Shown here: piece after piece, positions 1,242 through 17,723 of the stretch
Position numbering within the stretch: the first letter of the stretch is position 1
Layout: each line of letters opens with the position of its first letter
From: Flavobacteriaceae bacterium
Lineage (GTDB): Bacteria > Bacteroidota > Bacteroidia > Flavobacteriales > Flavobacteriaceae
NCBI GenBank assembly: GCA_029253805.1
Contig: JAQWYU010000047.1
Span: 1 to 17,723 of the forward strand
Length of the DNA stretch: 17,723 bases
Direction: 5' to 3'
Translations under genes and position numbers: made by a program
The notes under the pieces: model-generated
Database searches by the model: none
Told to the model about the DNA's origin: nothing
The model's input: only the letters and a program-made list of their open reading frames with translations

Positions 1242-1306
1242 AGTATAAATATTGCCATATTATGTTGTATATTAGATGCTTAATTGAAATAAGTTGTTGT
1301 TATGCA

Positions 1307-1317
1307 TTGTAATACAA
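1307..1317. promoter_or_regulatory. 11-bp dyad in the leuA divergent intergenic region
   Basis: TTGTA-A-TACAA is a perfect inverted repeat with a one-base centre. It lies in the 148-base region between the divergent helical-repeat gene and leuA, and partly overlaps the candidate -7 box of the minus-strand gene. An operator is possible, but short dyads are common in AT-rich DNA. I saw no T-box, leucine-rich leader peptide or attenuator hairpin ahead of leuA. Confidence 0.2.
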
Positions 1318-1389
1318 ATATGACAATCGACTCATTTAATAGAACCAAATTATAAATTCGTATTGCAATAGAAAAATATATTCCTATAA

Positions 1390-2550: not shown

Positions 2551-2564
2551 TCGAATTTGCTCGC

Positions 2565-3947: not shown

Positions 3948-4537
3948 TGGAAAAATTTAAAACCTATATATCTAAAGCAATTCCATTAAATATTGCTAAT
4001 GTAGATACAGATCAAATCATACCTGCACGTTTTTTAAAAGCCACGGATAAGAAAGGTTTTGGAGAAAATGTGTTTAGAGACTGGCGTTTTGATAAGACAG
4101 GAAATCCAGTCTCAAACTTCCCTCTTAATAATGCATCATATTCTGGAAGTATTTTAATTGCAGGAGATAACTTTGGTTGTGGTTCTAGTCGGGAACACGC
4201 AGCCTGGGCGCTAGTTGGCTATGGATTTAAAGTAATCGTTTCTAGTTTTTTTGCAGATATTTTTAAGGGAAATGCTTTGAATAATGGGCTTTTGCCAGTA
4301 CAAGTGTCTAAGTCTTTTTTACTTCAACTATTTTCAGCCATTAAATTAGATTCTAATTGTCAATTTGAAGTAAACCTAGAAAACCAGACCATTAGTATTA
4401 AAGGTACTGATTTAAGTGAAAGTTTTAATATAGATCCTTACAAAAAAACCTGTATGATTAATGGCTATGATGATATTGATTATTTATTAAGTAAAAGAGA
4501 AATTATCGAAGCATTTGAGCTTCAAAAACCATATTAA
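3947..4537 (+). CDS. leuD: 3-isopropylmalate dehydratase small subunit
   Basis: LeuD is the swivel-domain partner of LeuC and completes the isopropylmalate isomerase active site. The 196-residue product has the usual length. It begins with the conserved segment [12 protein letters not shown] (19-30) and carries [13 protein letters not shown] at 77-89, the substrate-recognition loop of bacterial LeuD. The ATG overlaps the leuC stop by one base, and leuB starts two bases after its own stop codon ends, so the three genes are almost certainly one translationally linked unit. Nothing is unusual in it. Confidence 0.97.
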
Positions 4538-4538
4538 T

Positions 4539-5657
4539 ATGAACTTAAAAATCGCTGTACTATCTGGAGACGGGATTGGCCCAGAAGTGACAGAACAAGC
4601 TGTAAAAGTACTAAAAGCAATTGCAATAAATTTTGACCATCATTTTAGCTTTACCCCAGCTCTTGTTGGCGCAACAGCTATCGATCAACTTGGAGATCCT
4701 TTACCTGAAAGCACACTAGATGTTTGTAGAGCAAATGATTCTATCCTTTTTGGTGCTATAGGTCACCCTAAATACGACAATGACCCAACAGCAAAAGTGC
4801 GTCCTGAACAGGGCCTTCTAAAGCTTCGTAAAGAGTTAGGTTTATATGCAAATGTTAGACCTGTAAAGGCCTATGAATCACTACTTGGAAAATCACCATT
4901 AAAGAAAAAAATAATTAAAGGGACTGATATTAGTATTTACAGAGAACTAACAGGCGGTATTTATTTTGGAGAAAAAAAAATAAGTGCTGATGGGAATACA
5001 GCATCTGATCTTTGTGAATATTCTCGGTATGAAATAGAACGCATAACACACCTGGCGTTCAAAGCTGCAAAATCTAGAAGACATAAGGTTACTTTAATAG
5101 ACAAAGCAAATGTGCTAGAAAGCTCTCGACTTTGGAGAAAAGTAGTTGGAGAAATTTCAAAAGACTACCCAGAAATAGAATTAGATTATCTTTTTGTAGA
5201 TAATGCTGCGATGCAAATGATTTTAAATCCAAATCAGTTTGATGTGATTCTTACAGAAAACTTGTTTGGTGATGTTATTAGTGATGAAGCGAGTGTCATA
5301 GGAGGTTCTATTGGGCTTTTGGCGTCTGCATCATTGGGAGACAAACATTCTATGTTTGAACCAATTCACGGATCTTACCCACAGGCAGAAGGAAAAGGAA
5401 TTGCTAACCCAATAGCTTCAATATTGTCTGCTGCAATGTTATTAGATCATTTTGAGCTAAATAGGGAGGCAAAAATGATACGAAAAGCAGTTGAAAAATC
5501 TCTTAAACTAAATATTACTACGCCTGATTTAAACACAAAATTTGATAACATAACTACCAATAATGTGGGAGATTTCATTGAAGACTTTATCAATAACCCT
5601 GATGATTCAAATATGAATTTCAAAAATATGCATTTAGGACAATCAACAATTATTTGA
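4539..5657 (+). CDS. leuB: 3-isopropylmalate dehydrogenase
   Basis: LeuB oxidises and decarboxylates 3-isopropylmalate with NAD+ to 2-oxoisocaproate, the last pathway-specific step to leucine. From the ATG at 4539 the product is 372 residues. It shows GDGIGPE at 10-16, YANVRPVK at 103-110, GGIYFGE with the catalytic Tyr142, DKANVL with Lys189, VDNAAMQ with Asp221, NLFGDVISDE with metal-binding Asp245 and Asp249, and EPIHGS at 274-279. The frame stays open upstream to a TTG at 4515 inside leuD, but the ATG gives the standard N-terminus and directly follows the leuD stop. The last 15-20 residues form a short tail that looks poorly conserved. A strong terminator follows, so leuB closes the operon. 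Confidence 0.96.
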   Translation: MNLKIAVLSGDGIGPEVTEQAVKVLKAIAINFDHHFSFTPALVGATAIDQLGDPLPESTLDVCRANDSILFGAIGHPKYDNDPTAKVRPEQGLLKLRKELGLYANVRPVKAYESLLGKSPLKKKIIKGTDISIYRELTGGIYFGEKKISADGNTASDLCEYSRYEIERITHLAFKAAKSRRHKVTLIDKANVLESSRLWRKVVGEISKDYPEIELDYLFVDNAAMQMILNPNQFDVILTENLFGDVISDEASVIGGSIGLLASASLGDKHSMFEPIHGSYPQAEGKGIANPIASILSAAMLLDHFELNREAKMIRKAVEKSLKLNITTPDLNTKFDNITTNNVGDFIEDFINNPDDSNMNFKNMHLGQSTII

Positions 5658-5676
5658 TCAATTGTCAAAATATTTC

Positions 5677-5710
5677 AAAAAAAAAGCCTCGCTTTCGCGA
5701 GGCTTTTTTT
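5677..5710. terminator. Bidirectional intrinsic terminator between leuB and rng
   Basis: A perfect 7-bp GC-rich stem, GCCTCGC (5686-5692) and GCGAGGC (5697-5703), encloses a TTTC loop. It is flanked by nine A on the left and seven T on the right, so A-T pairing can extend the stem. It reads as a rho-independent terminator on both strands and sits between two convergent genes. The T run overlaps the stop codon of the minus-strand gene. Confidence 0.93.
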
Positions 5711-7256
5711 ACAGTCTAATGGTCTTGCCATTACTATTTTTAAAATGATATTGTAGATACGTGTAAGCATCTCTTGGCATTACTTTTACCCATTTTTTAT
5801 GTTCAAAATACCATTTTGTACGTATGGACGGGAAACCTTTAGTGATAAAGGCAGCTATAAAAGGGTGTGTGTTTAAAGTCACTTTCTTATAACCTTTTTT
5901 TATTATCTGATCTAGCTGATGATTCATTTTTTCAATCAGAACAATTGGTGCTTCAACCTCAACGCCATTAATCCCACTAGGATTCTTTTCCTTGGTTTTA
6001 ATATTCATTTCTGGTCGAACTCGTTGTCTGGTGATTTGAATTAAACCAAACTTGCTCGGTGGCAATATTTTATGTTTGGCTCTATCATCCTTCATTTCAT
6101 CTCTAAGATGATTAAAGAGTTTTTTTCGATTCTCAACTTTGTTCATGTCAATAAAATCAATAACAATAATTCCACCCATATCACGCAATCTAAATTGTCT
6201 TGCTAATTCGGTCGCTGAGATTAAATTAACTTCTAATGCAGTATCTTCTTGATTTCTTTGTTTGCTTGATCTATTTCCACTATTAACATCAACAACATGG
6301 AGGGCCTCTGTATGCTCAATTATCAAATAAGCACCTTTTGACATTGACACTGTTTTTCCAAATGAGGTTTTTATTTGTCTTTCAATTCCAAATTTCTCAA
6401 AAATTGGAGTTTTTGGATTATGATACTTTACAATTGATACCCGTTGAGGTGCAATCTCATTCACATAATCTTTGACTTGATTGAAAATAATTTCATTATC
6501 AACTATAATACCTGTGAAAGTATCATTGAAAATATCTCTTAGAATTGATGACGCTTTATTCATTTCACCAAGAACCTTACTTGGTGTATGTGCTCGAGGA
6601 ATTGCTTTACAAATAGATTCCCACTTTGAATATAAGTTTTGAAGGTCTTTATCTAATTCAGCAACCTTCTTATCAGTCGCAACAGTTCGGATAATCACGC
6701 CAAACCCTTTCGGGGTTATACTTTTTACTAAGCGCTTTAGGCGTTCTTTCTCTTTTCTGCTTTCAATTTTTTGAGAAATTGAGATGCGATCCGAAAACGG
6801 AACTAGAACTAAATAGCGACCTGCGAGAGATATTTCGGAGCTAATTCTGGGACCTTTAGTGGAAATTGGCTCCTTAACTATTTGCACTAAGATTGATTGA
6901 CTTGACTTAATTATGTCGTCAATATTACCATCTTTTTTAATGTCCTCTTCAAACTTGAAATTTTTTAAAGAGTAATCTTTTAATTTACCTGTGCTTACAC
7001 GTTTCATGAATTTCGTTAGCGTTGGATATTTGGGCCCAAGGTCGTGATAATGCAAAAAAGCATCTTTTTCATACCCTACATTAACAAATGCAGCGTTAAG
7101 ACCTGGAACAGACTTTCTGACTTTGGCTAAAAACACATCACCTACAGAAAATTTACTATTATCTTCATCTTTTTGAAATTCAATTAATTTTCCATCTTTA
7201 AGTAAGGCAAAATCAACATTATCTGAATTAGATCTTATTATTAATTCTTTATTCAT
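5709..7256 (-). CDS. rng: Ribonuclease E/G family endoribonuclease
   Basis: This is a single-strand-specific endoribonuclease of the RNase E/G family, acting in rRNA processing and mRNA turnover. The product is 515 residues, close to RNase G in size and without the long C-terminal scaffold of enterobacterial RNase E. An S1-like RNA-binding domain starts near residue 38 (GDVFLAKVRKSVPGLNAAFV). The catalytic core contains HVVDVNSG (Asp323) and VIDFIDM (Asp367), the two metal-binding aspartates. ITRQRVRPEMNIK at 408-420 leads into the zinc-link position, but the usual CPxC pair is absent: the segment continues KTKEKNPSGINGVEVEAP with no cysteine. The flavobacterial enzymes I remember look the same. 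The gene shares a strand with HU and the 29-residue protein, and ends in the bidirectional terminator. No clear promoter box was found in the 242 bases upstream. Confidence 0.94.
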   Translation of the reverse strand: MNKELIIRSNSDNVDFALLKDGKLIEFQKDEDNSKFSVGDVFLAKVRKSVPGLNAAFVNVGYEKDAFLHYHDLGPKYPTLTKFMKRVSTGKLKDYSLKNFKFEEDIKKDGNIDDIIKSSQSILVQIVKEPISTKGPRISSEISLAGRYLVLVPFSDRISISQKIESRKEKERLKRLVKSITPKGFGVIIRTVATDKKVAELDKDLQNLYSKWESICKAIPRAHTPSKVLGEMNKASSILRDIFNDTFTGIIVDNEIIFNQVKDYVNEIAPQRVSIVKYHNPKTPIFEKFGIERQIKTSFGKTVSMSKGAYLIIEHTEALHVVDVNSGNRSSKQRNQEDTALEVNLISATELARQFRLRDMGGIIVIDFIDMNKVENRKKLFNHLRDEMKDDRAKHKILPPSKFGLIQITRQRVRPEMNIKTKEKNPSGINGVEVEAPIVLIEKMNHQLDQIIKKGYKKVTLNTHPFIAAFITKGFPSIRTKWYFEHKKWVKVMPRDAYTYLQYHFKNSNGKTIRL

Positions 7257-7468
7257 AGTGTTAATTTTAATCTGAACACGAGTGTGCAGATGGATTATAA
7301 TTTTTTATTAATTCCTATTTTTCAATAGAAATATAATCTAGAGTTAAAAACGTTTTTGTATGTTTAAAACTAAGATTTTACAGGATTTAATACGTTAAAC
7401 TCGACAACTCAGTAAGGTATGAATGAGTATTGTACGAATTAGATGTCAATGAACGTTATCGAAATAAA

Positions 7469-7497
7469 TTGAAAAAGAAGCTGCGCTAATTTTTCAA
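7469..7497 (-). terminator. Probable terminator after the small basic gene
   Basis: Two 13-base arms (7469-7481 and 7485-7497) pair with two adjacent mismatches around a 3-base loop, and the minus-strand transcript then runs into TTTATTTC. The hairpin starts just after the stop codon of the 29-residue gene. The tail is not a pure T run, so it may be only a partial stop before rng, 213 bases further on. The rest of 7257-7468 shows no gene, only a 12-bp palindrome AAAAACGTTTTT at 7346-7357. Confidence 0.45.
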
Positions 7498-7498
7498 C

Positions 7499-7588
7499 TT
7501 ATTTCTTCTTGTGACGATTAGCTCGGCGTCTCTTTTTACGCTTATGCGTTGCTACCTTATGTCTTTTACGTTTTTTACCACTGGGCAT
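7499..7588 (-). CDS. 29-residue basic protein, bS22/mS38 (COX24)-like
   Basis: A complete ATG-to-TAA frame of 29 codons starts MPSGKKRKRHKVATHKRK and ends in three lysines; over half of the residues are Lys, Arg or His. It is too short for ordinary ORF calling. The composition and the KKRKRHKVATHKRKKRR-type core match a tiny protein that I recall as conserved across Bacteroidetes and annotated with the AURKAIP1/COX24 domain. That is the family of mitochondrial mS38 and mycobacterial bS22, both in the small ribosomal subunit. The ribosomal role here is inference. It lies 30 bases downstream of HU on the same strand and is probably cotranscribed with it; rng follows. The precise coding frame in an AT-rich spacer and the terminator-like hairpin right after it support a real gene. 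Confidence 0.85.
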   Translation of the reverse strand: MPSGKKRKRHKVATHKRKKRRRANRHKKK

Positions 7589-7618
7589 AAATGTACTTTT
7601 TAAAATTAATAAATAAAT

Positions 7619-7912
7619 TTATTTGTTTACTCTAACCTTCGACTTAACTCCTTCCACAAAAACTTTGGAAGGTTTAAACGACGGAATGTTGTGAGCTGGA
7701 ATTTTGATTGAGGTATTCTTTGAGATATTTCTTCCTATTTTTTCAGCTCTTGTTTTAATTATGAAGCTACCAAATCCTCTTAAATAAACATTTTCACCTG
7801 TCTCTAAAGATCCTTTTACTTCACTCATAAAAGATTCAACAGTTGCTAATACATCCCCCTTTTCAATTCCTAATTCATTGGAAATCTTAGCTACAATCTC
7901 GGCTTTAGTCAT
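7619..7912 (-). CDS. HU/IHF-family DNA-binding protein
   Basis: This 97-residue histone-like protein binds and bends DNA as a dimer. It starts MTKAEIVAKISNELGI, the usual HU N-terminal helix. LRGFGSFIIKTRAEKIGRN at about 44-62 is the family signature leading into the DNA-contacting beta-arm, and IPAHNIPSFKPSK follows with the prolines expected at and after the arm tip. The family length is about 90-100 residues. It diverges from mutY, and a perfect TAnnTTTG box lies about 42 bases upstream of the ATG. The small basic gene follows 30 bases downstream. HU and IHF subunits cannot be told apart with certainty from sequence alone, so no symbol is given. Confidence 0.95.
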   Translation of the reverse strand: MTKAEIVAKISNELGIEKGDVLATVESFMSEVKGSLETGENVYLRGFGSFIIKTRAEKIGRNISKNTSIKIPAHNIPSFKPSKVFVEGVKSKVRVNK

Positions 7913-7953
7913 TTTGTATGATATTTTTTGTTAATATTTTCTCAACAAGGTTG

Positions 7954-7961
7954 CAAATATA
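7954..7961 (-). promoter_or_regulatory. Candidate -7 box for the HU gene
   Basis: On the minus strand the sequence is TATATTTG, an exact match to the Bacteroidetes housekeeping -7 consensus TAnnTTTG. A start about 5 bases downstream would leave a leader of roughly 35-40 bases before the HU ATG. No TTG at the usual -33 spacing was found, which lowers confidence. Confidence 0.5.
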
Positions 7962-8019
7962 TGTATTTTAATTTCAATATTTGAGCCCTCAAGAATTAAA
8001 ATTAAATATATTAAAAGAT

Positions 8020-8027
8020 TATTTTTG
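8020..8027 (+). promoter_or_regulatory. Candidate -7 box for mutY
   Basis: TATTTTTG matches TAnnTTTG exactly, 19 bases before the mutY ATG at 8047. A start near 8033 would exclude the upstream in-frame TTG at 7981 as a translation start. No -33 TTG is visible at the expected spacing. Confidence 0.4.
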
Positions 8028-8046
8028 TCTAACAATTAAAATAAAA

Positions 8047-9087
8047 ATGAGCTTTAACTCAACCCTAGCTAACTGGTATTTAGAAAATAAAAGAGACCTT
8101 CCATGGCGAAATTCTAAGAATCCGTACAATATTTGGTTGTCTGAAATTATACTTCAGCAAACACAGGTCAAACAGGGACTACCCTATTTCGAAAAATTTA
8201 TATCCAATTTTCCAACAGTTTATGACTTAGCTAGTGCACCAGAAATTGAAATACTCAAGCTTTGGCAAGGACTAGGCTATTATTCTAGAGCTAGAAATCT
8301 TCACTTTTCAGCAAAATATATTACAAAATACCTTAATGGTGTATTTCCAAAAACAAAAAAAGAACTCATGCTGCTCAAGGGAGTTGGAGACTATACAGCT
8401 AGTGCTATTGCTTCAATATGCTACGAAGAGTCAGTTGCAGTTGTTGATGGTAATGTATATCGTGTTTTGTCTCGCTATTTTGGAATAGATACTCCAGTTA
8501 ATAGCTCAAAGGGTGTCAAACAATTTAAGATGCTAGCTACATCATTACTACCAAACTCAGATTTGGGTGATTATAACCAGGCGATAATGGATTTTGGAGC
8601 TAAACAGTGCAAGCCGATATCTCCGTCATGTATTGAATGTCCATTAAGTATAGATTGTAAAGCTAATGCTACTGGATCGGTTAAAATTCTTCCGGTTAAA
8701 CTAAAAAAAACAAAAATTACTAAAAAATACTATAACTTCATTGTATTCAATTCACAAGACAATGAAACATATTTGGAACAACGGAAAAGCAAGGGAATAT
8801 GGCATCAACTTTATCAATTTCCACTTATAGAAACAAATAAATCTGCATCCACAAAAGACTTATTGGAACACCACAGAAAAACACTAATTTTTCCTGAGAC
8901 ATTTAAAGAATTAAATTTGTTTAATAGTACTGAAATAGTGCACAAACTCTCTCACTTAGAACTAAAGGTAAAATTTTGGATATTAGAGACCTCAACTCCA
9001 ATAAAAAACGCTGTAAAGTGGTCAGAAATTAAATCATATCCTGTACCTGTCGTCATTGATAGGTTCATTAATAATTTCCAAAATTAG
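8047..9087 (+). CDS. mutY: A/G-specific adenine DNA glycosylase
   Basis: MutY removes adenine mispaired with 8-oxoguanine, the first step of base-excision repair that prevents G:C to T:A changes. From the ATG at 8047 the product is 346 residues. LPWRNSKNPYNIWLSEIILQ holds the catalytic Glu33. The helix-hairpin-helix LLKGVGDYTASAIAS lies at 109-123, followed by AVVDGNVYR with the catalytic Asp134. A 4Fe-4S cluster site is visible as Cys188-x6-Cys195-x2-Cys198-x5-Cys204. The C-terminal 130 residues form the NUDIX-like domain that reads 8-oxoG; LSHLEL at 301-306 matches the FSH-loop position. The frame extends 22 codons upstream to a TTG, but those residues look non-coding and a promoter box falls inside them. 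ssb follows after 75 bases. Confidence 0.96.
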   Translation: MSFNSTLANWYLENKRDLPWRNSKNPYNIWLSEIILQQTQVKQGLPYFEKFISNFPTVYDLASAPEIEILKLWQGLGYYSRARNLHFSAKYITKYLNGVFPKTKKELMLLKGVGDYTASAIASICYEESVAVVDGNVYRVLSRYFGIDTPVNSSKGVKQFKMLATSLLPNSDLGDYNQAIMDFGAKQCKPISPSCIECPLSIDCKANATGSVKILPVKLKKTKITKKYYNFIVFNSQDNETYLEQRKSKGIWHQLYQFPLIETNKSASTKDLLEHHRKTLIFPETFKELNLFNSTEIVHKLSHLELKVKFWILETSTPIKNAVKWSEIKSYPVPVVIDRFINNFQN

Positions 9088-9162
9088 GCTTATCAATCTC
9101 TAATTTTTAAATATCTTTATATTTTAATTTTAATTTAAACATTAATACAAATATTAATTTTT

Positions 9163-9603
9163 ATGACAGGTACCTTAAATAAGGTAATGCTAATTGGGCA
9201 TCTTGGGGATGTAGTGAAAATGCATTACTTTGATGATAAAAACTGTGTGGGACGATTTTCTTTGGCTACAAATGAAACTTATACAAACAAACAAACTAAC
9301 GAAAAAGTTACAAACACAGAGTGGCACAATATTGTAGTAAGAAATAAAGGAGCCGAAATCGGCGAGAAGTATTAAAAAAAAGGAGATAAAATTTATATTG
9401 AAGGCCGTTTAAAGACTCGCAAGTGGCAAGATGATAAAGGGATTGATCGTTATTCAGTTGAAATTCAATGTATTGACTTTACATTTTTAACTCCTAAGTC
9501 AAAAAACAATGAAGCAACTAGCACAGTTCAATCTGTTCCAACTATTAGTGAAAAACTTAAAACTAATCTTGATCAAGAACAACTCAATGACCTCCCTTTT
9601 TAA
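9163..9603 (+). pseudogene. ssb: Single-stranded DNA-binding protein, interrupted by an in-frame TAA
   Basis: SSB coats single-stranded DNA during replication, repair and recombination. The first 70 codons (MTGTLNKVMLIGHLGDVVKM onward to GAEIGEKY) are a typical flavobacterial SSB OB-fold N-terminus. Codon 71 is TAA (9373-9375). In the same frame, with no shift, the protein continues [20 protein letters not shown] and ends EQLNDLPF at 9600, the acidic tip that recruits partner proteins. The expected codon is Leu (TTA; homologues read EKYLxKGDK), so one T-to-A change at the edge of a T/A homopolymer explains it. Without the stop the product would be 146 residues, a normal length. Since ssb is essential, the cause may be a sequencing error, a recent mutation backed up by a second ssb elsewhere, or, less likely, readthrough. 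No good internal restart is visible. Confidence 0.9.
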
Positions 9604-9621
9604 TTGATTTATGAATTCTCA

Positions 9622-10926
9622 ATGATTGTAATATTTTTAAATGCATCACTAACTGCTGGCATTACAGGTCTAATAATATTATTAATCGGCTCTGCTCTAA
9701 TTTCGGGTGCTGAAGTTGCTCTTTTTTCGTTAAGTCAAAAAGACTTAGATGAAGCAAAAAAATATAAATCAAAGTCTTTTGAAATTATCATAGAACTCTT
9801 AAAAAAACCTAAGAAATTACTGGCTTCAATATTAGTAGCGAATAACTTCATTAACATAGCAATCGTAATTTTATTTGCCTCCATATCAAATAACTTTTAC
9901 AAGGTAATTGATTCAGAACTAGACTTAGCTGGTATTAAAATCAATCCTGTCTTTTTGATCGAAGTTGTATTAATAACATTTTTAATTTTATTATTTGGAG
10001 AAATTTTACCTAAAGTGTATGCAAATAGAAATAACTTAAAGTTTTCAAAATTTATGGCTTACCCTCTTAAGTTTCTTGATATAGTTATTTCACCTATCAG
10101 CATTCCAATGCAAAAAGCTACTTTATTAATTCACAAAAAACTTGGTAACCAAAAACTTACATTAAATGTTGAACAACTGTCTCAGGCATTAGAACTTGCT
10201 AGTGACGAAGACACAACTCAAGAAGAGCAAAAAATACTAAAAGGTATTGTATCATTTGGAAATATAGACACTAAACAGGTGATGCGTCCCCGTATCGATA
10301 TTTTTGCTCTAGATGAAGCGACTAGCTATGTTGAAATAGTTCCAGAAATTTTAAAAAATGGCTACTCAAGAATTCCCGTTTATAAAAACAGTATTGATAG
10401 CGTAATTGGCGTATTACATGTAAAAGATTTACTGCCTCATCTTCAAAAAAAACAATTTAATTGGACTGACCTACTAAGAACTCCTTTTTTTATTCCTGAA
10501 AATAAAAAACTAGATGATTTGATGGTAGAGTTTCAAGAGAAAAAAAATCACCTCGCTGTAGTTGTTGATGAATATGGAGGTACTTCAGGAATAGTATCTT
10601 TAGAAGATATTATTGAAGAAATAGTAGGTGATATTAGCGATGAATTTGACGATAACGATTTGACATATTCAAAACTTGATGCAAATAATTTTGTATTTGA
10701 GGGAAAAACAACTTTAAGAGATTTTTATAACATAATTAAACCTAATGATATATCAGTATTCGAAGAGAAAAAAGGAGAGGCTGAAACCTTAGCCGGTTTT
10801 GTTCTTGAAATCTCAAACAGTTTTCCAAAAATAAATAATAAAATTAATTTTAAAACGTATTCATTTACAGTTGAGGCAATGAGCAAAAAACGGATTAAAC
10901 AATTAAAAGTAACGCTAAAAAGATAA
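9622..10926 (+). CDS. gldE: Gliding motility-associated protein GldE (CNNM/CBS/CorC type)
   Basis: GldE is an inner-membrane protein of the hemolysin-C/CorC class, linked to gliding in Flavobacterium johnsoniae, where its gene sits with gldD. From the ATG at 9622 the product is 434 residues. The CNNM/DUF21 membrane domain has hydrophobic segments near 10-31, 67-89 and 108-130, with GEILPKVYANR after the third. Two CBS domains follow: one around VMRPRIDIFALDE to IGVLHVKDLLPHL (about 218-275), the second including VVDEYGGTSGIVSLEDIIEE (about 286-340). A C-terminal CorC/HlyC domain fills about 350-432. A TTG at 9604, touching the ssb stop, is another possible start and would add six residues. 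The stop overlaps the gldD ATG (TAATG), implying coupling. The gene name rests on this pairing and on the ssb-mutY synteny; a general CorC transporter is the alternative. Confidence 0.88.
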   Translation: MIVIFLNASLTAGITGLIILLIGSALISGAEVALFSLSQKDLDEAKKYKSKSFEIIIELLKKPKKLLASILVANNFINIAIVILFASISNNFYKVIDSELDLAGIKINPVFLIEVVLITFLILLFGEILPKVYANRNNLKFSKFMAYPLKFLDIVISPISIPMQKATLLIHKKLGNQKLTLNVEQLSQALELASDEDTTQEEQKILKGIVSFGNIDTKQVMRPRIDIFALDEATSYVEIVPEILKNGYSRIPVYKNSIDSVIGVLHVKDLLPHLQKKQFNWTDLLRTPFFIPENKKLDDLMVEFQEKKNHLAVVVDEYGGTSGIVSLEDIIEEIVGDISDEFDDNDLTYSKLDANNFVFEGKTTLRDFYNIIKPNDISVFEEKKGEAETLAGFVLEISNSFPKINNKINFKTYSFTVEAMSKKRIKQLKVTLKR

Positions 10927-11486
10927 TGAAACCATTATTAACTCTTTTAGTTTTAATGGCTTGTATATCTTGCGAGGAAGTTTTAGTTCCAAAACCAAAG
11001 GCGTTTTTTAGTCTGGATTACAAAAAAGCATCCTACATTGAAAGTCATGGAGAATTCCCTTTTTTGTTCGAAAAAAATAAACTTACTCAGATATCAATTT
11101 CTAAAAAACAAAATAATCAAGAAGGATTTATTCTTCATTATCCAACTTTAAAAGCCTCTATATTCATCAATTATAAAAAAGTAAATAGTAACTTAAGAAA
11201 ACACATCGATGACGCAAAAAAAATGACTAACAAACATCGCCAAATAGCTGATGAAATCTCACAACGTAAATATGATAACAACTTTGAAAAAGTACATGGA
11301 ATGTTCTACGACCTTACGGGCAATGTAGCGTCTCCATCTCAATTTTATGTGACCGACAGTGTTAATCATTTTTTATCTGGAGCGCTCTACTTCGAAACAA
11401 AACCTAACTATGATTCCACACTACCAGCCATAAGCTATATCCAAAAAGACATGGTGCACCTCATTGAAAGTCTTAAGTGGAAATAA
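10926..11486 (+). CDS. gldD: Gliding motility lipoprotein GldD
   Basis: GldD is a lipoprotein needed for gliding in F. johnsoniae. Gliding is tied to the type IX secretion machinery, but the molecular role of GldD is not settled. The product is 186 residues. A signal peptide MKPLLTLLVLMACISC ends in one of two possible lipidation cysteines, Cys13 (LMAC) or Cys16 (ISC); Cys16 aligns better with GldD homologues as I recall them and is followed by two Glu. The mature part shows family-like segments: PKPKAFFSLDYKKASY near 22-37, FYVTDSVNHFLSGALYFETK (about 139-158), and the ending IESLKWK. The ATG overlaps the gldE stop by one base. The next gene is convergent thiL, 53 bases away, with no convincing terminator hairpin between them. 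Confidence 0.9.
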   Translation: MKPLLTLLVLMACISCEEVLVPKPKAFFSLDYKKASYIESHGEFPFLFEKNKLTQISISKKQNNQEGFILHYPTLKASIFINYKKVNSNLRKHIDDAKKMTNKHRQIADEISQRKYDNNFEKVHGMFYDLTGNVASPSQFYVTDSVNHFLSGALYFETKPNYDSTLPAISYIQKDMVHLIESLKWK

Positions 11487-11539
11487 ACTAGTTTCTAAAA
11501 AAATTCCTAAAAATTTAAAAAAAACAAGATTCTTTAAAT

Positions 11540-12598
11540 CTAATCCTCAGAGTCTGAACTTAATGGGTTCCATCCTTGGGCAGTCAAAGGAATTTTAGTC
11601 TCGCTTCTAGTAATTAGGTTCATTCCGTTGTTTGATTCAGTCATATAGCCTATAACAGTCAAATTTGGATTGGCTTTAATTTTTGAATAGTCGTCTTGAG
11701 AAATCGTCATTAAAAGTTCATAATCCTCTCCTCCATTTAAGGCAACTGTGGTGCTATTCATATTAAACTCTTCACTGGTGGAAATAACCTGAGGATCCAA
11801 AGGTATCTTTGTTTCATACAAATCACATCCCAATTCGCTTTGTTTACATAAATGGATAACTTCTGACGATAAGCCATCACTAATATCAATCATTGAAGTT
11901 GGCAATACATCTAGATCTTTTAGGAGTTTTATAATATCTTTTCTTGCTTCGGGTTTTAATTGACGCTCAACGATGTAACTGTAGGCCTCCAAATCAGGCT
12001 GGTTATTTGGATTAACTTTAAAAACCTGTTTTTCACGTTCTAAAACTTGAAGCCCTAAATAGGCCCCACCTAAATCTCCACTAACAACTAATAAATCATT
12101 GGGATTAGCTCCACTTCGCATCACTGCAGTTTCTAAATCAACTTCACCTACCGCCGTAACAGAAATCATTAAGCCTGTTTTGGAAGAAGTGGTGTCGCCT
12201 CCAACAACATCCACCCCATAAACTTCTGCGGCTTTGTTGACTCCCTCATAGAAAGCCTCCAAGGCCTCTAAAGAAAAACGATTAGAAACAGCAATAGAAA
12301 CTGTTACTTGGGTTGCAATTGCATTCATTGCATATACATCTGAAAGATTTACTATTATGGCTTTGTAACCCAAATGCTTTAACGGCATATAGCTTAAATC
12401 AAAATGAATTCCTTCCAACAACAAATCAGTAGTAAGCACAACCGACTTATTTTTAAAATCCAATACCGCAGAGTCATCTCCAATTCCTTTTAAAGTCGAA
12501 TCATTTTTAATATTAAATTGTTTAGTTAAATGATCTATTAATCCGAATTCGCCTAGCGAACCAAGGGATGTGCGTTCTTGATTTTTGTCTTCAATCAT
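11540..12598 (-). CDS. thiL: Thiamine-monophosphate kinase
   Basis: ThiL phosphorylates thiamine monophosphate with ATP to give the cofactor thiamine diphosphate. From the ATG at 12598 the product is 352 residues, near the family norm. Numbered from that start, GIGDDSAVLDF near 38-48 and TTDLLLEGIHF near 56-66 are the nucleotide- and Mg-binding segments. GGDTTSSK near 133-140 and SGDLGGAYLGLQVL near 173-186 are typical of the AIR-synthase fold. MIDISDGLSSEVIHL near 241-255 and NGGEDYELL near 299-307 complete the signature. An ATG 15 codons upstream (12643) is in frame, but those residues (MNCVQNLQKAPYFC) are unlike the family and contain a promoter-like box. No other thiamine gene is near. 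It is convergent with gldD and divergent from the lipoprotein cassette. Confidence 0.95.
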   Translation of the reverse strand: MIEDKNQERTSLGSLGEFGLIDHLTKQFNIKNDSTLKGIGDDSAVLDFKNKSVVLTTDLLLEGIHFDLSYMPLKHLGYKAIIVNLSDVYAMNAIATQVTVSIAVSNRFSLEALEAFYEGVNKAAEVYGVDVVGGDTTSSKTGLMISVTAVGEVDLETAVMRSGANPNDLLVVSGDLGGAYLGLQVLEREKQVFKVNPNNQPDLEAYSYIVERQLKPEARKDIIKLLKDLDVLPTSMIDISDGLSSEVIHLCKQSELGCDLYETKIPLDPQVISTSEEFNMNSTTVALNGGEDYELLMTISQDDYSKIKANPNLTVIGYMTESNNGMNLITRSETKIPLTAQGWNPLSSDSED

Positions 12599-12602
12599 TA
12601 TA

Positions 12603-12610
12603 CAAAAATA
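12603..12610 (-). promoter_or_regulatory. Candidate -7 box for thiL
   Basis: TATTTTTG on the minus strand matches TAnnTTTG and ends four bases before the preferred thiL ATG. Transcription would then start at or next to the ATG, giving a leaderless or nearly leaderless message. A TTG lies 25 bases upstream of the box, a little farther than usual. Chance occurrence in AT-rich DNA is possible. Confidence 0.3.
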
Positions 12611-12718
12611 AGGCGCTTTTTGTAGATTTTGGACACAATTCATAAGTAATTCAATTTAATCGGGGTGGTTTTCGTATTTAATGTAGCTTAAGTAAATAGT
12701 TTTTTTTAATTTTCACAT

Positions 12719-13963
12719 ATGAAAAACTATTTATTCGTAATATTAATTGTTATTGGAATATCATCGTCTTGTAGATTTAATATATATGATAATGATACTT
12801 TGGATCCAGTATTTACTGCGACTTGGCCCTGCGAAAATGGAATTGCTGATGTGTATCCCTGCAATGGCTATGACTTAATGAGTTCCCTGTCTTTAGAAGA
12901 TTTAACACCTGAAGGAGTTAATGACGGAAATATTACTGGTAATGATTCTTGGGGTTGGACTGATCCTGAAAATGGTAAGGAATACGCTTTAGTGGGCCTA
13001 AATTCTCATACTGCATTTATTGACATAAGTAATCCTTCAATGCCTATACTGCTGGGGGCACTTCCATCAGCAACCTTAAACAGTACTTGGAGAGATATTA
13101 AAGTATATCAAGATCATGCATTTATTGTAAGCGAGGCCTCTGGGCATGGAATGCAAGTTTTTGATCTAAAAAGATTAAGAGGGATTACTACTTCTCCCCA
13201 AATATTCACCGCTGATACTCATTTCACAGACTTCGGAAGTGCACATAATATTGTGATTAATGAGGCTTCTGGATATGCTTACGTTGTAGGCGCAAATCGA
13301 AATGGCCCTTTTTCTGGAGGTGCCCTGTTTGTTAATATTCAAAATCCTAAAATACCAATACTAGAGGGAGGATTTGGAGACGGAGGATATTCTCACGATG
13401 CTCAAGTGATTAATTATAACGGACCAGATATCGACTACATTGGAAAAGAGATATTGGTTGGTAGTAACGAAAATGAGATTGTAATAGCTGATGTCACTGA
13501 CAAATCTAATCCCATCACAATTTCTACTGTAGACTATTCAAATATTGGTTATACCCATCAGGGATGGTTTTCTGAGGATTTAAAATATTTTATTGTTGGT
13601 GATGAGCTGGATGAATTAAATATTGGAACAAATACCCGAACACTCATTTTCGATTTTACAGACTTAGATAACCCTATTTACGATTTTGATTATTTGGGTA
13701 ATACTCTAGCTATTGATCACAACGGTTATACAAACGGAAATAATTACTATTTAGCAAATTATACAGCTGGAATTCGTGTATTAGATTTGTCTCAAATTGG
13801 AGACAAAAGTCTTACAGAAATTGGTTTTTTTGACACGTATCCAGAAAATGATAATGCTGCCTTCGACGGTGTATGGAATGTATACCCATTTTTTATTAGT
13901 AACAACATTATTATTAGTGATATAGATCGAGGTTTATTTATAATTCGAAAAAGTAATTTTTAA
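12719..13963 (+). CDS. LVIVD-repeat / choice-of-anchor B family lipoprotein
   Basis: This 414-residue exported protein begins MKNYLFVILIVIGISSSC, a lipoprotein signal with lipidation expected at Cys18. A probable disulfide pair, Cys38 and Cys48 (WPCENGIADVYPCNG), precedes the repeat domain. From about residue 85 to the end it is a beta-propeller of LVIVD-type repeats, for example YALVGLNSHTAFIDISNPSM, EILVGSNENEIVIADVTDKS and YYLANYTAGIRVLDLS. Blade starts repeatedly carry a His: AHNIVI (His176), SHDAQV (His226), THQGWF (His280) and DHNGYT (His334). No enzymatic function is established for the choice-of-anchor B family as far as I know. It is the first gene of a four-gene set, with eight bases to the next, and probably faces the outer surface or periplasm. 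No clear TAnnTTTG promoter lies ahead of it. Confidence 0.88.
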   Translation: MKNYLFVILIVIGISSSCRFNIYDNDTLDPVFTATWPCENGIADVYPCNGYDLMSSLSLEDLTPEGVNDGNITGNDSWGWTDPENGKEYALVGLNSHTAFIDISNPSMPILLGALPSATLNSTWRDIKVYQDHAFIVSEASGHGMQVFDLKRLRGITTSPQIFTADTHFTDFGSAHNIVINEASGYAYVVGANRNGPFSGGALFVNIQNPKIPILEGGFGDGGYSHDAQVINYNGPDIDYIGKEILVGSNENEIVIADVTDKSNPITISTVDYSNIGYTHQGWFSEDLKYFIVGDELDELNIGTNTRTLIFDFTDLDNPIYDFDYLGNTLAIDHNGYTNGNNYYLANYTAGIRVLDLSQIGDKSLTEIGFFDTYPENDNAAFDGVWNVYPFFISNNIIISDIDRGLFIIRKSNF

Positions 13964-13971
13964 TTTATATT

Positions 13972-15324
13972 ATGCATCTTAACAATATCAAAAAACATTC
14001 TATATTATGTTGGACTATTATAAGTACAAGTTTATTTAGATGTTCTGATAAAGATTTTTCGCTTGGAAGAATAGATTTAAGTCCAGAAATCGAGTCTATT
14101 GTAACCTTAGGTGGGATAAAAAATGAAAGTGCAAAAAGTGTGATTAAAACTCAAGACGGCGGCTATGCTGTTGTGGGATATACTCAAAGCATGGATGGAG
14201 ATATTGAAGGGAAATTTAATGAATCCTTCGATTTCTGGTTTTTAAAATTTAATGAATTTAATGAATTAGAATGGCAAAAAACATATGGTGGTAGTGATGA
14301 TGAACGAGCCAGTGACCTAATCCAAACTAATGACGGTGGTTATGCGGTTATTGGAAAAAGTAAAAGTGAAGATGGCGACGTCTCTGAAAATGCAGGATAT
14401 GAAGACTTTTGGATTATAAAATTGGATTCATATGGATCTATTTTATGGGAAAAATCTTTTGGATACTCAGGAATTGATACACCTAACTCAATTATTCAAA
14501 CCAACGATCAAGGGTATTTGATTACAGGTGTATTAGATGTTTCTGCATCTAACGGTCAAGGAAGTCGATTGTCAAATGTGCAAGCTAGGCACGCAGGAGG
14601 AGACTATTGGGTAATCAAATTAAATAGTAGTGGAAATAAAGAATGGAGCAACTATTATGGTGGGACATTTACAGACACAGCTTATGATACTGTACAAACA
14701 AATGATAATGGTTATATTATTGTAGGATCCTCAGATAGTATTGATGTAGATATTTCAAACAATAAAGGTAATTACGATTTTTGGGTAATTAAAATTTCTG
14801 AATTTGGAGATCTCATATGGGAAAAATCATTTGGAGGAGATCAAGTAGACGAAGCTCGAGCAATTAGTCAAATGGCTGATGGCAATTATTTGGTTGTTGG
14901 AGATACAAGAAGTTCAAATTTAGATATTTCTCAAAATAATGGAGCTGCAGACTTATGGGTAATAAAAATTAGCTCAAATGGATCTCTTTTGTGGGAAAAA
15001 ACGTTAGGAGGAAGTAATTTTGACGTTGCTAGATCTATTTCAAAAACACAAGATAATGATTTTTTAATTGCAGGTAGTTCAAGAAGCTCTGATGGTATAT
15101 TTATTAACAATAATGGACAAAACGACGCCTTATTACTGAAAATAAATAGCAACGGCTACTTACAATGGCAAAAAACTATTGGAGGTCCCGAAATTGATTT
15201 TTTCTATGGAGCTGAAGAATTAGCAGATGGTTCAATTGTGGCTGTTGGAGACTCTGATAGTTCGAATATAGATATTATGGAAAATAAGGGCTTTAAAGAC
15301 CTCTTGATACTTTATACAAAATGA
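13972..15324 (+). CDS. Exported seven-repeat beta-propeller protein
   Basis: The 450-residue product consists almost entirely of about 58-residue repeats, each shaped like DxAxsIxqTxDgGYxvvG, then DxWvIKxxxxGxlxWeKsfGG. Starts fall at residues 49, 108, 166, 232, 290, 348 and 406. The seventh lacks its final 'G-x-L-x-W-x-K-x-x-GG' strand, while residues 41-48 (ESIVTLGG) supply such an end before the first repeat. This is the 'velcro' closure of a seven-bladed propeller. Repeat 3 carries an eight-residue insertion with a GGDYWVIK continuation. The N-terminus MHLNNIKKHSILCWTIIST is signal-like; Cys24 (LFRCSD) could be lipidated, though Arg before it is unusual. There is no type IX sorting domain at the C-terminus. 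Its stop overlaps the next ATG (ATGA), implying coupling to the MbnP-like gene. Function unknown; binding or scaffolding is inference. Confidence 0.85.
   Translation: MHLNNIKKHSILCWTIISTSLFRCSDKDFSLGRIDLSPEIESIVTLGGIKNESAKSVIKTQDGGYAVVGYTQSMDGDIEGKFNESFDFWFLKFNEFNELEWQKTYGGSDDERASDLIQTNDGGYAVIGKSKSEDGDVSENAGYEDFWIIKLDSYGSILWEKSFGYSGIDTPNSIIQTNDQGYLITGVLDVSASNGQGSRLSNVQARHAGGDYWVIKLNSSGNKEWSNYYGGTFTDTAYDTVQTNDNGYIIVGSSDSIDVDISNNKGNYDFWVIKISEFGDLIWEKSFGGDQVDEARAISQMADGNYLVVGDTRSSNLDISQNNGAADLWVIKISSNGSLLWEKTLGGSNFDVARSISKTQDNDFLIAGSSRSSDGIFINNNGQNDALLLKINSNGYLQWQKTIGGPEIDFFYGAEELADGSIVAVGDSDSSNIDIMENKGFKDLLILYTK
14116..15321 (+). repeat. Seven tandem coding repeats of about 174 bases
   Basis: Protein repeats begin at 14116, 14293, 14467, 14665, 14839, 15013 and 15187. 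They are 58-66 residues long except the last, which is 45. Similarity is clear at protein level (GGYxVVG, DxWVIK, WEKSxGG) but the DNA copies have diverged, so this is an old duplication rather than an expanding satellite. Confidence 0.85.
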
Positions 15325-16076
15325 AACTAAAATATATCTTTTTTACAATAACTTTTATAAACCTTTTTGGATGTATTGCAGACTCTGACGAACCTAAATC
15401 AAAGATAACTTTAAACTTTGACCATTATTGGGACGAAAATGAAATTACGAACTCAGAGCTTAATAGCTTAAATTTAACAAATGAATTTGGTAACCTTTTG
15501 AGTATTGAACGCTTACGTTACCTAATTTCTGGAATTGTATTGACAAATGACAATGGACAGACTATCGAACTGGAAGGATACAATTTGGTAAACATCTCTA
15601 ACGAGACTTCATTAAATTATACTCCTTTAGAAATGATTAAATCCGGGTATTATAGTAATATCTCATTTATCTTTGGGTTTACAAATGAAAATAATAATGG
15701 CAATTACGTTGATCTAAATTCTAAATCTTGGAATGTCCCTTCAATGCTTGGAGGTGGGTATCATTTTCTACAGATAGACGGAAAGTTTATAAATAATAGT
15801 AATGAAGAACAGGGATATAATTATCACGCAATAAGAGCTACTAACAACCTAAACAACTCTAACAATCAAGACACTTTTTTTAGAGTTGATCTAGGTCCTA
15901 TCAACGTTACGATAGAAACAGAAATTAATATTTCCGTTGATGTTGCTAAATGGTTTAAAAACCCCAACACTTGGAACCTCAACGAACTGAATCAAATGTT
16001 AATGCCAAATTATGAAGCTCAAATAATGATGTACGAAAATGGACAAGATGTATTTAGTTTAGCAATAAATGATTAA
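15321..16076 (+). CDS. MbnP-like domain lipoprotein
   Basis: The 251-residue product has a lipoprotein signal ending NLFGC (Cys18). The mature part begins KITLNFDHYWDEN and continues IERLRYLISGIVLTNDNG, the N-terminal pattern of MbnP-like domains. SWNVPSMLGGGYHFLQIDGK at 136-155 corresponds to the conserved Trp/Gly-Tyr motif, and NYHAIRATNN at 167-176 to the later His-containing strand. MbnP of methanotrophs is a periplasmic copper-binding protein in which a Trp is converted to kynurenine by the partner di-heme enzyme MbnH. Here the next gene, 15 bases on, encodes such an enzyme, which supports the assignment. There is no cysteine besides Cys18, so the four-Cys motif of the 'metallo-mystery pair' relatives is missing. 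Trp37, Trp137, Trp211 and Trp218 are candidate modified residues. Copper binding is inferred. Confidence 0.8.
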   Translation: MKLKYIFFTITFINLFGCIADSDEPKSKITLNFDHYWDENEITNSELNSLNLTNEFGNLLSIERLRYLISGIVLTNDNGQTIELEGYNLVNISNETSLNYTPLEMIKSGYYSNISFIFGFTNENNNGNYVDLNSKSWNVPSMLGGGYHFLQIDGKFINNSNEEQGYNYHAIRATNNLNNSNNQDTFFRVDLGPINVTIETEINISVDVAKWFKNPNTWNLNELNQMLMPNYEAQIMMYENGQDVFSLAIND

Positions 16077-16091
16077 AACTCAAAGAAGACC

Positions 16092-17159
16092 TTGAAATCA
16101 TATTTATACTTATTTTTATTATTATTCTTATCAACTTCTTGCGACAAAGAATCCGTTAATTCTTACGTTCATACTACAACGCCCAGTCCATTACAAATAC
16201 CGCAACTATTTGAATCATTAATTTTGAATCCAATTATACCTGTTGATAACCCACAGACAAAAGAAGGAATTTTACTGGGACGAAAACTGTTTTATGATCC
16301 AATTTTATCTGCAGATAACACACTAGCTTGCGCCAGCTGCCATAACCCTAGCAATGCATTCTCCGATAGTAACAGATTTAGCCAGGGTATTGATGGACTT
16401 AATGGACTTAGAAACTCAATGCCGTTATTTAATTTAGCATGGAATTATGAAGATCGATTTTTCTGGGATGGTAGTGAATATGGGCTCGAAAGTCAGGTTT
16501 TTGAACCTATAGTAAATCCAATTGAAATGCATTCAACATGGCCAGAAGTAGCGCATAAACTTGCTCAAGATTTTGATTATCCATCACTTTTTGAAGCTGC
16601 TTTTGGAAGTAGGTTAATTGATTCTGTTTTAGTTTCAAAAGCAATTTCTCAGTTTGAAAGAACTCTTATCTCTTCAAGCTCAAGATTTGACTCTTATTTA
16701 ATGGGAACTGGAAACTTAACTACACAGGAAATTGAGGGATTTAATATTTTTATGGATGAATCAAAAGGCGATTGCTTTCATTGTCACGGAAGTGATAATA
16801 ATCCTCTATGGACTGATAATAAGTTTCATAACAACGGCCTAGATTCTAACATCACAGATCTTGGTCTTGGCGGTATTAGCGGAGATCCATCTGATGATGG
16901 TAAATTTAAATCGCCATCTTTACGAAATTTAATATTTACGGCGCCGTATATGCATGATGGAAGATTCTCAACAATAGATGAAGTTATTAACCATTACAGC
17001 GAAGGCCTTGTAAACTCACCCACCATAGATCCCTTAATGAAAAAAGTGAGCCAAGGGGGTGTACAGTTAACCCTTCTAGAAAAAGCTAGTCTTAAAGCTT
17101 TTCTACTAACTTTAACAGACGAGGAGTTTATAAACAATCCAAACTTCTCAAATTTATAG
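16092..17159 (+). CDS. Di-heme cytochrome c peroxidase / MauG-MbnH-like enzyme
   Basis: The 355-residue product has a lipoprotein-type signal (MKSYLYLFLLLFLSTSC, Cys17) and two c-heme sites: CASCH at 80-84 and CFHCH at 228-232. Between and after them are the bCCP/MauG landmarks: FFWDG with Trp125 as inter-heme bridge, NPIEM with Glu145, and APYMHDGRF at 284-292. At the sixth-ligand position of the high-potential heme, bacterial peroxidases have Met. Here the aligned residue is Tyr302 (EVINHYSEG), as in MauG-type enzymes that oxidise protein side chains. That alignment is from memory. The start must be TTG at 16092, because no ATG lies between it and the upstream gene's stop in this frame. With the MbnP-like gene directly before it, oxidation of a Trp on that partner is the most attractive role; peroxide detoxification is the alternative. 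Confidence 0.87.
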   Translation: MKSYLYLFLLLFLSTSCDKESVNSYVHTTTPSPLQIPQLFESLILNPIIPVDNPQTKEGILLGRKLFYDPILSADNTLACASCHNPSNAFSDSNRFSQGIDGLNGLRNSMPLFNLAWNYEDRFFWDGSEYGLESQVFEPIVNPIEMHSTWPEVAHKLAQDFDYPSLFEAAFGSRLIDSVLVSKAISQFERTLISSSSRFDSYLMGTGNLTTQEIEGFNIFMDESKGDCFHCHGSDNNPLWTDNKFHNNGLDSNITDLGLGGISGDPSDDGKFKSPSLRNLIFTAPYMHDGRFSTIDEVINHYSEGLVNSPTIDPLMKKVSQGGVQLTLLEKASLKAFLLTLTDEEFINNPNFSNL

Positions 17160-17225
17160 GTTACATCCATTCTTAAGATATGTTATATTAATGTTAGGAT
17201 TTATGGATATCCCCTCCTTATGTTG

Positions 17226-17233
17226 TATATTTG
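17226..17233 (+). promoter_or_regulatory. Candidate -7 box for sufA
   Basis: TATATTTG is an exact TAnnTTTG match, about 30 bases ahead of the ATG at 17264. A start near 17239 would leave a leader of about 25 bases and separate the suf genes from the cassette upstream. It also rules out the in-frame TTG at 17231, which lies inside the box. No -33 TTG is seen at the right distance. Confidence 0.55.
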
Positions 17234-17263
17234 TGCACTATTTATATAGAAGCTAAAAACATT

Positions 17264-17593
17264 ATGATAAAAGTTTCAGAAACAGCAAAAACTAAAGTCT
17301 TGGAATTAATGCAAGAAGACGGCTTTAATCCAGCAAAAGACTATGTCAGGGTTGGTGTTAAAAGCGGGGGCTGTTCTGGCCTTTCTTACGATCTTAAATT
17401 TGATAAATCTCAAATTGACAGCGATAAACTGTTTGAAGATAACGGGGTAAAAATAATTGTCGATGCTAAAAGTTTTCTTTACTTAATTGGAACTACCCTA
17501 GAATATTCAGGAGGTCTTAATGGAGCGGGGTTTGTGTTCAAGAACCCCAACGCAAACCGCACATGTGGATGCGGAGAATCTTTTTCCTTATAA
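17264..17593 (+). CDS. sufA: A-type Fe-S carrier, HesB/IscA/SufA family
   Basis: The protein receives Fe-S clusters or iron from the SUF machinery and passes clusters to target proteins. The 109-residue product has the three conserved cysteines: Cys37 in SGGCSGLSY and Cys101/Cys103 in TCGCGESF at the C-terminus. MIKVSETAKTKVLELM is the usual start of the family. The ATG at 17264 is preferred over an upstream TTG that overlaps the promoter box. sufB starts 17 bases after the stop, so this is the first gene of a suf operon; that context favours the SufA name over IscA or ErpA. It begins 104 bases after the di-heme enzyme gene. Confidence 0.92.
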   Translation: MIKVSETAKTKVLELMQEDGFNPAKDYVRVGVKSGGCSGLSYDLKFDKSQIDSDKLFEDNGVKIIVDAKSFLYLIGTTLEYSGGLNGAGFVFKNPNANRTCGCGESFSL

Positions 17594-17610
17594 CAAAATT
17601 TCTAATCGCT

Positions 17611-17723
17611 ATGAACAAATATACAGAAGACGATTTAAGAGAAGAACTTAAAACAAAGGAGTATGAATACGGTTTTTATACTGAACTAGATTCCGAAACG
17701 TTTCCTATTGGGCTAGACGAATC
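17611..17723 (+). CDS. sufB: Fe-S cluster assembly protein SufB (first 37 codons)
   Basis: The frame starts at ATG 17611 and runs off the window. The N-terminus MNKYTEDDLREELKTKEYEY followed by GFYTELDSETFPIGLDE is a clear match to flavobacterial SufB as I remember it. SufB is the scaffold subunit of the SufBCD complex, on which the cluster is assembled. No catalytic residue is within the visible part. Its place right after sufA supports the call. The rest of the operon (commonly sufC, sufD, sufS) would lie beyond the window. Confidence 0.9.
   Translation, partial: MNKYTEDDLREELKTKEYEYGFYTELDSETFPIGLDE

Follow-up and report, generated by a model that had tools for sequence, protein, structure and literature searches.

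A conserved cassette of four flavobacterial lipoproteins sets a diverged MbnP/MbnH pair beside two beta-propellers

Contig JAQWYU010000047.1 of a Flavobacteriaceae bacterium (GenBank assembly GCA_029253805.1), of which positions 1 to 17,723 are called the window here, carries the run of four plus-strand genes that is the subject of this report. They encode, in order, a choice-of-anchor-B propeller (B), a seven-repeat propeller (S), a lipoprotein of the MbnP fold (P) and an MbnH-like di-heme enzyme (H), and their coordinates are collected in Table 1. A first-pass annotation had described four consecutive genes with gaps of 8, −4 and 15 bases, and the open reading frame calls match it at each junction, the S–P overlap being an ATGA. 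It had also given all four proteins a signal peptide; N-terminal signals are indeed present, and in each protein a Cys follows the hydrophobic N-terminal stretch, which makes them signals of the lipoprotein type, the lipobox of S (LFRC) being a poor one. Rfam gave no match at gathering cut-offs.

Table 1. Features of the cassette and its borders (positions in the window)
Feature	Position	Strand	Basis or conservation
thiL-like gene with AIRS domains, bordering the syntenic locus upstream	11540..12643	-	
B, TIGR04312 seven-bladed propeller lipoprotein	12719..13963	+	profile score
B H176, H226, H280, H334, one His per blade in successive blades	13244-13246, 13394-13396, 13556-13558, 13718-13720	+	
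S, second propeller lipoprotein, seven repeats of ~58 residues, SBBP/delta-60-like	13972..15324	+	repeat positions; NF047494/TIGR02608 below cut-off
S residues 144-172, H...HxH in lineages without P/H, E...IxT in the window	14401..14487	+	
P, diverged MbnP-family lipoprotein	15321..16076	+	
P W137, equivalent of first Trp of WxW	15729..15731	+	profile-profile alignment
P H148 (GGGYH), invariant only in diverged type	15762..15764	+	43/43 vs 0/25 canonical
P H169, invariant in both types	15825..15827	+	68/68
P W218, invariant only in diverged type	15972..15974	+	43/43 and 80/80
P M228, invariant in diverged type	16002..16004	+	43/43 and 80/80
H, MbnH/MauG-like di-heme c-type enzyme, lipoprotein, TTG start	16092..17159	+	profile and solved-chain matches
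H first heme motif CASCH, residues 80-84	16329..16343	+	C, C, H each 43/43
H W125, inter-heme Trp position	16464..16466	+	68/68
H second heme motif CFHCH, residues 228-232	16773..16787	+	C, C, H each 43/43
H Y302, aligned with Tyr of MbnH 6e1c (IYSEG)	16995..16997	+	43/43 diverged, 21/25 canonical
TATATTTG, Bacteroidetes-type -7 element (TANNTTTG), probably of the suf genes; downstream border	17226..17233	+	
sufA-like gene, first of the neighbouring suf genes, outside the cassette	17264..17593	+	PF01521

B scores 539.9 bits against TIGR04312 (choice_anch_B, cut-off 100) and is a full member of that family; the LVIVD label that it had first been given holds marginally, at 20.7 bits for a cut-off of 20.2. 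By sequence, no convincing solved relative of B was found (one match, E 0.062), and a literature search for the term choice-of-anchor B found no paper. The seven blades proposed for S are supported by seven repeat units, which start at residues 46, 105, 163, 229, 287, 345 and 403; no family scored above cut-off in the profile searches with S, and the LipL53 SBBP propeller lipoprotein family NF047494 gave 46.8 bits against a cut-off of 400. P matches PF20243 (MbnP) at 95.1 bits, for a cut-off of 27, and has the fold of MbnP 7l6g, while H matches PF03150 at 178.8 bits and carries two CxxCH motifs, so that the MbnP-like lipoprotein and the di-heme enzyme of the annotation were likewise recovered.

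The nearest solved chain to H is MbnH 6e1c (E 1.5e-54), and H has all the marks of the MbnH/MauG type, namely two CxxCH, the inter-heme Trp and a Tyr at the MbnH position; we take W125 and Y302 to be the functional residues at those places. Another explanation would make H a common di-heme peroxidase guarding the envelope against peroxide, with P no more than its electron donor or scaffold. Membership of PF03150 would suit it, as would the score of 242.4 bits against TIGR04039 (MbnH), below the cut-off of 362.85, which no match in the 149 family genomes described below reached. We consider it very unlikely, however, since a probable cytochrome c peroxidase ranks behind MbnH among the solved chains (E 2.4e-35), the MbnH-type Tyr is present in 43/43 diverged members, and H adjoins an MbnP fold at the locus.

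Conservation was assessed in two samples. The first consists of 149 genomes of the window's family, evenly drawn from a larger group and searched with PF20243, TIGR04312, the S of the window and TIGR04039; matches were grouped by neighbourhood, using those listed down to about 110 bits for B, 162 bits for S and 192 bits for H (a few H rows of 193–194 bits and all weaker ones were left out). The second consists of the best 80 of 370 named relatives, found by a scan with the P alignment and chosen by peptide patterns that include H148 and H169, so that 80/80 for those two His is circular; the patterns missed a WxW subgroup, and the two samples overlap in at least five loci. The first-pass annotation had proposed looking for the four families together, and they were found in the same order and on the same strand in 48 of the 149 family genomes, 47 of them intact and one (G124) split by contig ends, with P, H and sufA on its second piece. 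This split cassette (L133 and L134) is counted among the 48 genomes and left out of the residue counts. Among the 80 named loci, S-P-H is present in all and B-S-P-H in 79. The operon is real and conserved. Extra copies of B precede some cassettes, with two to five choice-of-anchor-B genes in tandem before S (L083 3941-12072; L071-L082).

Two types of P/H pair occur in the family, and the H tree splits them into clades at 100/100. Canonical pairs keep the motif MxWxW in P (25/25, plus 10/10 further), and the pair of the window belongs to a diverged type. Residue counts refer to 68 P: 43 diverged, 4 canonical beside B-S and, of the 31 canonical P found elsewhere, 21; for the remaining 10, motif and place alone were examined. 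Among the 71 genomes with B-S, 48 have both P and H and 23, where B-S stands alone, have neither, and the diverged pair was found in 0/78 genomes without B-S (Fisher p 8e-22, relatedness ignored). Away from B-S there are 31 P-H loci, one of which is the G124 piece, and one P without a listed H; apart from that piece, all of these 32 MbnP loci are canonical (31 with MxWxW). In four genomes a canonical pair, from its separate clade, fills the same slot between thiL and suf. The four H cluster together (94/89), and a single exchange or a single independent recruitment is enough to account for them; the four loci are not firmly grouped on the S trees. Seven B-S-P-H genomes (the window's included, G124 left out) also carry a canonical pair elsewhere, which means that both types coexist.

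The annotation had further called the genes a surface-anchored flavobacterial version of the methanotroph system. A conserved unit of the Flavobacteriaceae it is, with lipoboxes in most members; its surface location is probable. A simple lipobox rule was passed by 56/75 B, 72/75 S, 48/49 P and 48/49 H, and among those that passed, at least two acidic residues stand in the next five positions in 36 B, 52 S, 44 P and 27 H. Acidic residues after the lipobox Cys resemble the surface-export signal of Bacteroidetes lipoproteins, and the likeness is clearest for P and S; B of the window (RFNIYD) fits poorly.

The cassette is probably transcribed as one unit. Over 49 loci the junctions are of 60 bases or less in 47 cases for B-S, 49 for S-P and 47 for P-H (starts set mechanically), with median lengths of 9, 3 and 6 bases. 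The motif TANNTTTG, which we take to be the consensus of the Bacteroidetes -7 element, lies within 250 bases after H in 47/49 loci against 8.1 expected from mononucleotide shuffles; standing as it does between H and suf, it makes the cassette probably a unit of its own. A single promoterless run of cassette and suf genes was rejected on the same count. Ahead of B the motif was found in 20/49 loci against 6.9 expected, and in the window there is none in the 80 bases upstream. The window also holds a gldD gliding-motility lipoprotein gene at 10926-11486 (TIGR03512, 225 bits).

The P of the diverged type departs from the canonical one. As reportedly found by Manesis in 2021, MbnH oxidises the first Trp of WxW to kynurenine, and copper is held between a His, a Met and solvent. 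Profile–profile alignment (probability 99.9 to 100%) matches W137 of the window's P to the first Trp, V139 to the second and K135 to the Met of the motif, which reads MAWNWQAG in 7l6g, so that the window has WxV instead of WxW and has lost the Met of MxWxW. Among the 43 diverged P, the first Trp is present in 38 (30 WxV, 8 WxW) and Phe replaces it in 5. W137 is presumably the Trp that is oxidised in known MbnP, and H169 presumably the conserved His with a role as copper ligand. The annotation had carried the methanotroph chemistry over directly: as to residues, the equivalent Trp (W137) and His (H169) are there, and the second Trp and the Met are not. With H148, W218 and M228 as invariants of its own, the site of diverged P is rebuilt relative to the canonical one, and copper and kynurenine chemistry in the diverged pair is plausible.

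The two propellers have histidines of their own. In B, a common x-[H or W]-x-x place, as read from the sequence, opens each of the seven blades (W78, W124, H176, H226, H280, H334, W386), and the four His are kept in 17/17 distant homologues from outside the window's family and in 78/79 named loci, the remaining one being a gap. D295, E296 and D298 are also present in all 17, which were picked among the higher-scoring listed matches, two of them from one genome. The four His may form a candidate metal site at the propeller axis; alternatively they may be structural, as a structural His occurs in WD40 repeats and the place in B resembles it. The pattern is independent of the presence of P/H.

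In S the histidines do follow the pair. H144, H168 and H170 are all present in 26/26 loci without P/H; H168 and H170 are found in 0/45 loci with diverged and 0/4 with canonical P/H, and H144 in 9/45 and 1/4. R313 shows the opposite pattern (45/45 and 4/4 with P/H, 0/26 without), and H207 is present in 75/75; locus L129 yielded no S and is outside this comparison. The invariant H...HDH...H of S in the lineages without MbnP/MbnH (L084-L097, L118-L126, L130-L132) may be a metal site of its own. By a test of 85% against 25% presence, the residues that separate loci with and without P/H are T349 and N396 only in B, and in S residues such as N305, D311, R313 and A326.

We tentatively read the cassette as a four-lipoprotein operon, probably exposed at the surface, in which the diverged MbnP/MbnH pair serves the two-propeller module as a metal-handling variant. 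Our belief in this reading falls somewhat short of even and is much lower than our confidence in the gene anatomy. H, using peroxide, would oxidise the neighbouring P, with W137 the first choice of residue in the window, and the oxidation would help to make or tune a metal site, probably for copper(I), made up of H148, H169 and possibly M228. P would then hold the metal for the propellers B and S or pass it to them, and in lineages without the pair S would bear its own His-rich site, site and pair alternating. A bolder version takes choice-of-anchor-B propellers in general as envelope His-ring metalloproteins, for which the operon would supply metal through the rebuilt pair, with a non-classical Trp target and in replacement of the S His site; we think this quite unlikely.

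Several points weigh against reading the pair as the metal-handling partner of the propellers, and the first concerns the place. Conservation of the flanks comes close to that of the cassette itself, with thiL in front in 73/80 named loci and sufA behind in 74/80, and as the whole thiL–suf region is syntenic, a conserved order by itself says little about joint function and the adjacency of B and S to the pair no proof of docking. Both flanks are present at 71/75 B-S loci (44/45 with diverged P/H, 4/4 with canonical, 23/26 without), which are essentially one orthologous locus whose order is partly inherited; beside canonical pairs on other contigs or in other genomes, thiL or sufA was found in 0/30 fetched with flanks. 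The cassette could accordingly hold two independent pairs, B-S and P-H, that share a place and not a function within a region inherited intact. It would suit this explanation that in a survey of 345 genomes of the phylum, with B over cut-off in at least 109 and P in 87, no B was seen by eye within 10 kb of P outside the family among the matches listed. Against it stand the three junctions, each of them short or overlapping, and evidence stronger than order, namely that P and H are present jointly, that two types of pair occupy the same slot, that the diverged pair was not seen without B-S, and that S differs with the presence of the pair. We hold a shared place without a shared function to be somewhat unlikely.

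A second group of such points concerns the chemistry. K135 replaces the Met two residues before the Trp, a Met that is a ligand in known MbnP, and copper is the putative metal. Position 137 is Trp in 58 and Phe in 22 of the 80 named loci, the latter including 16 Winogradskyella, 2 Hyunsoonleella, 2 Bizionia and 1 Psychroserpens, and direct transfer of the Trp-to-kynurenine step from MbnH and MbnP is not supported as it had been stated. Their H keeps the first heme motif and the inter-heme Trp in 22/22 cases, and the second heme motif and the Tyr in 21/21 that extend there, so that oxidation of the classical Trp cannot be required in all members. By a rule of 90% against 15%, no other residue of H, B or P tracks Phe137, and the one position of S with such a leaning is 248. 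MbnH might then modify another residue; the candidates are W37, W211 and W218, the last being the strongest. W218 is invariant, W37 (95% of 43 and 80/80) and W211 (93% of 43 and 79/80) are nearly so, canonical P differ at these places, and Phe at 137 is tolerated with the MbnH motifs kept. An invariant Trp is often structural, however, and with 16 of the 22 Phe loci in Winogradskyella the substitution may reflect few events; for the family sample, the best H tree needs 2 changes to explain the 5 Phe rows, and at least 1 is forced by supported branches. A target other than the canonical Trp is, on this evidence, unlikely.

The propellers supply the last of the points against. On the S tree a single clade (100/98) unites the loci without P/H, so the contrast in the S His amounts to a single event. 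The His site was found in none of 16 outgroup S-like proteins, and with the base of the tree (34 of the 75 S rows and 16 outgroup rows) unsettled, the His may have been gained or lost. Nor did the 85%/25% test find in either propeller any Trp, Tyr or Met that occurs only with P/H; B or S as the substrate of MbnH through such a residue was therefore rejected.

Of known systems, the nearest is the MbnP/MbnH of methanotrophs, the "metallo-mystery pair" (TIGR04052/TIGR04039; PDB 7l6g, 6e1c). The window differs from it in a P that lacks the second Trp and the Met, has one Cys (C18) in place of the four-Cys motif of the TIGR04052 type and gives no match to TIGR04052 among NCBIfam families at E 0.001, in an H below the TIGR04039 cut-off, and in the joining of the pair to two propellers. 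In MopE/SACCP and CorA/CorB of Methylococcus and Methylomicrobium, a copper protein that is secreted or sits at the surface, and that has a kynurenine and two His, lies beside a MauG-like enzyme (PMC3912023, PMC3621798); for CorA the kynurenine and two His are described, and the partner enzyme of MopE, SACCP, is on the cell surface (PMC3912023). The likeness of those two His to H148 and H169 of P is analogy only, and no sequence or fold match of MopE or CorA to the cassette was among the matches listed. Outside the window's family, TIGR04312 proteins, of which B is a full member, do not stand beside MbnP among the phylum-survey matches listed. The pair is described, as GenProp0940 and in a section headed "mysterious partners", as conserved well outside the methanobactin producers (PMC3621798), and MbnPH-like genes lie in copper operons, often with TonB-dependent transporters (PMC9426467). 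The annotation had supposed the combination with both propellers to be new; a literature search found no account that treats it as one system, and the parts seen of PMC3621798, PMC3912023 and PMC9426467 make no mention of propellers beside MbnP/MbnH.

The canonical flavobacterial pairs are of the same families and likewise adjacent genes, one of them on contig C43 of the window's own genome, and differ in keeping MxWxW and in lying away from B-S in 31/35 cases. At canonical loci (L098-L117) a small Cys-motif protein is encoded upstream in 20/21 (L101:4366-4833, CVNKDKPKLQCNGKCHL) and a barrel-like protein downstream in 16/21 (L112:6780-7826, DDCDLCGC); neither example has a Pfam family, and the two are possible copper-handling partners of the canonical pair. 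Four canonical pairs (L114-L117) follow a TonB-dependent-receptor-like gene, the example being without a Pfam match. Directly after the pair on contig C43 comes a YHYH-domain protein with a type IX sorting tail (PF14240, PF18962; L003 2207-5317, minus strand), and the same third gene occurs in 2/10 further canonical loci (L248 6596-8005, L249 3584-4936), where P is of the same short subtype.

To our knowledge, MauG-like enzymes shown to oxidise a partner protein are few, and the operon bears on what MbnP and MbnH do outside methanotrophs. Cultured strains that carry it belong to Algibacter, Winogradskyella, Hyunsoonleella, Tamlana and Bizionia. Trp and Phe both occur naturally at the target position, and two types of pair at one locus. 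The putative metal site of S alternates with the P/H pair, and for the choice-of-anchor-B proteins the operon provides a functional lead.

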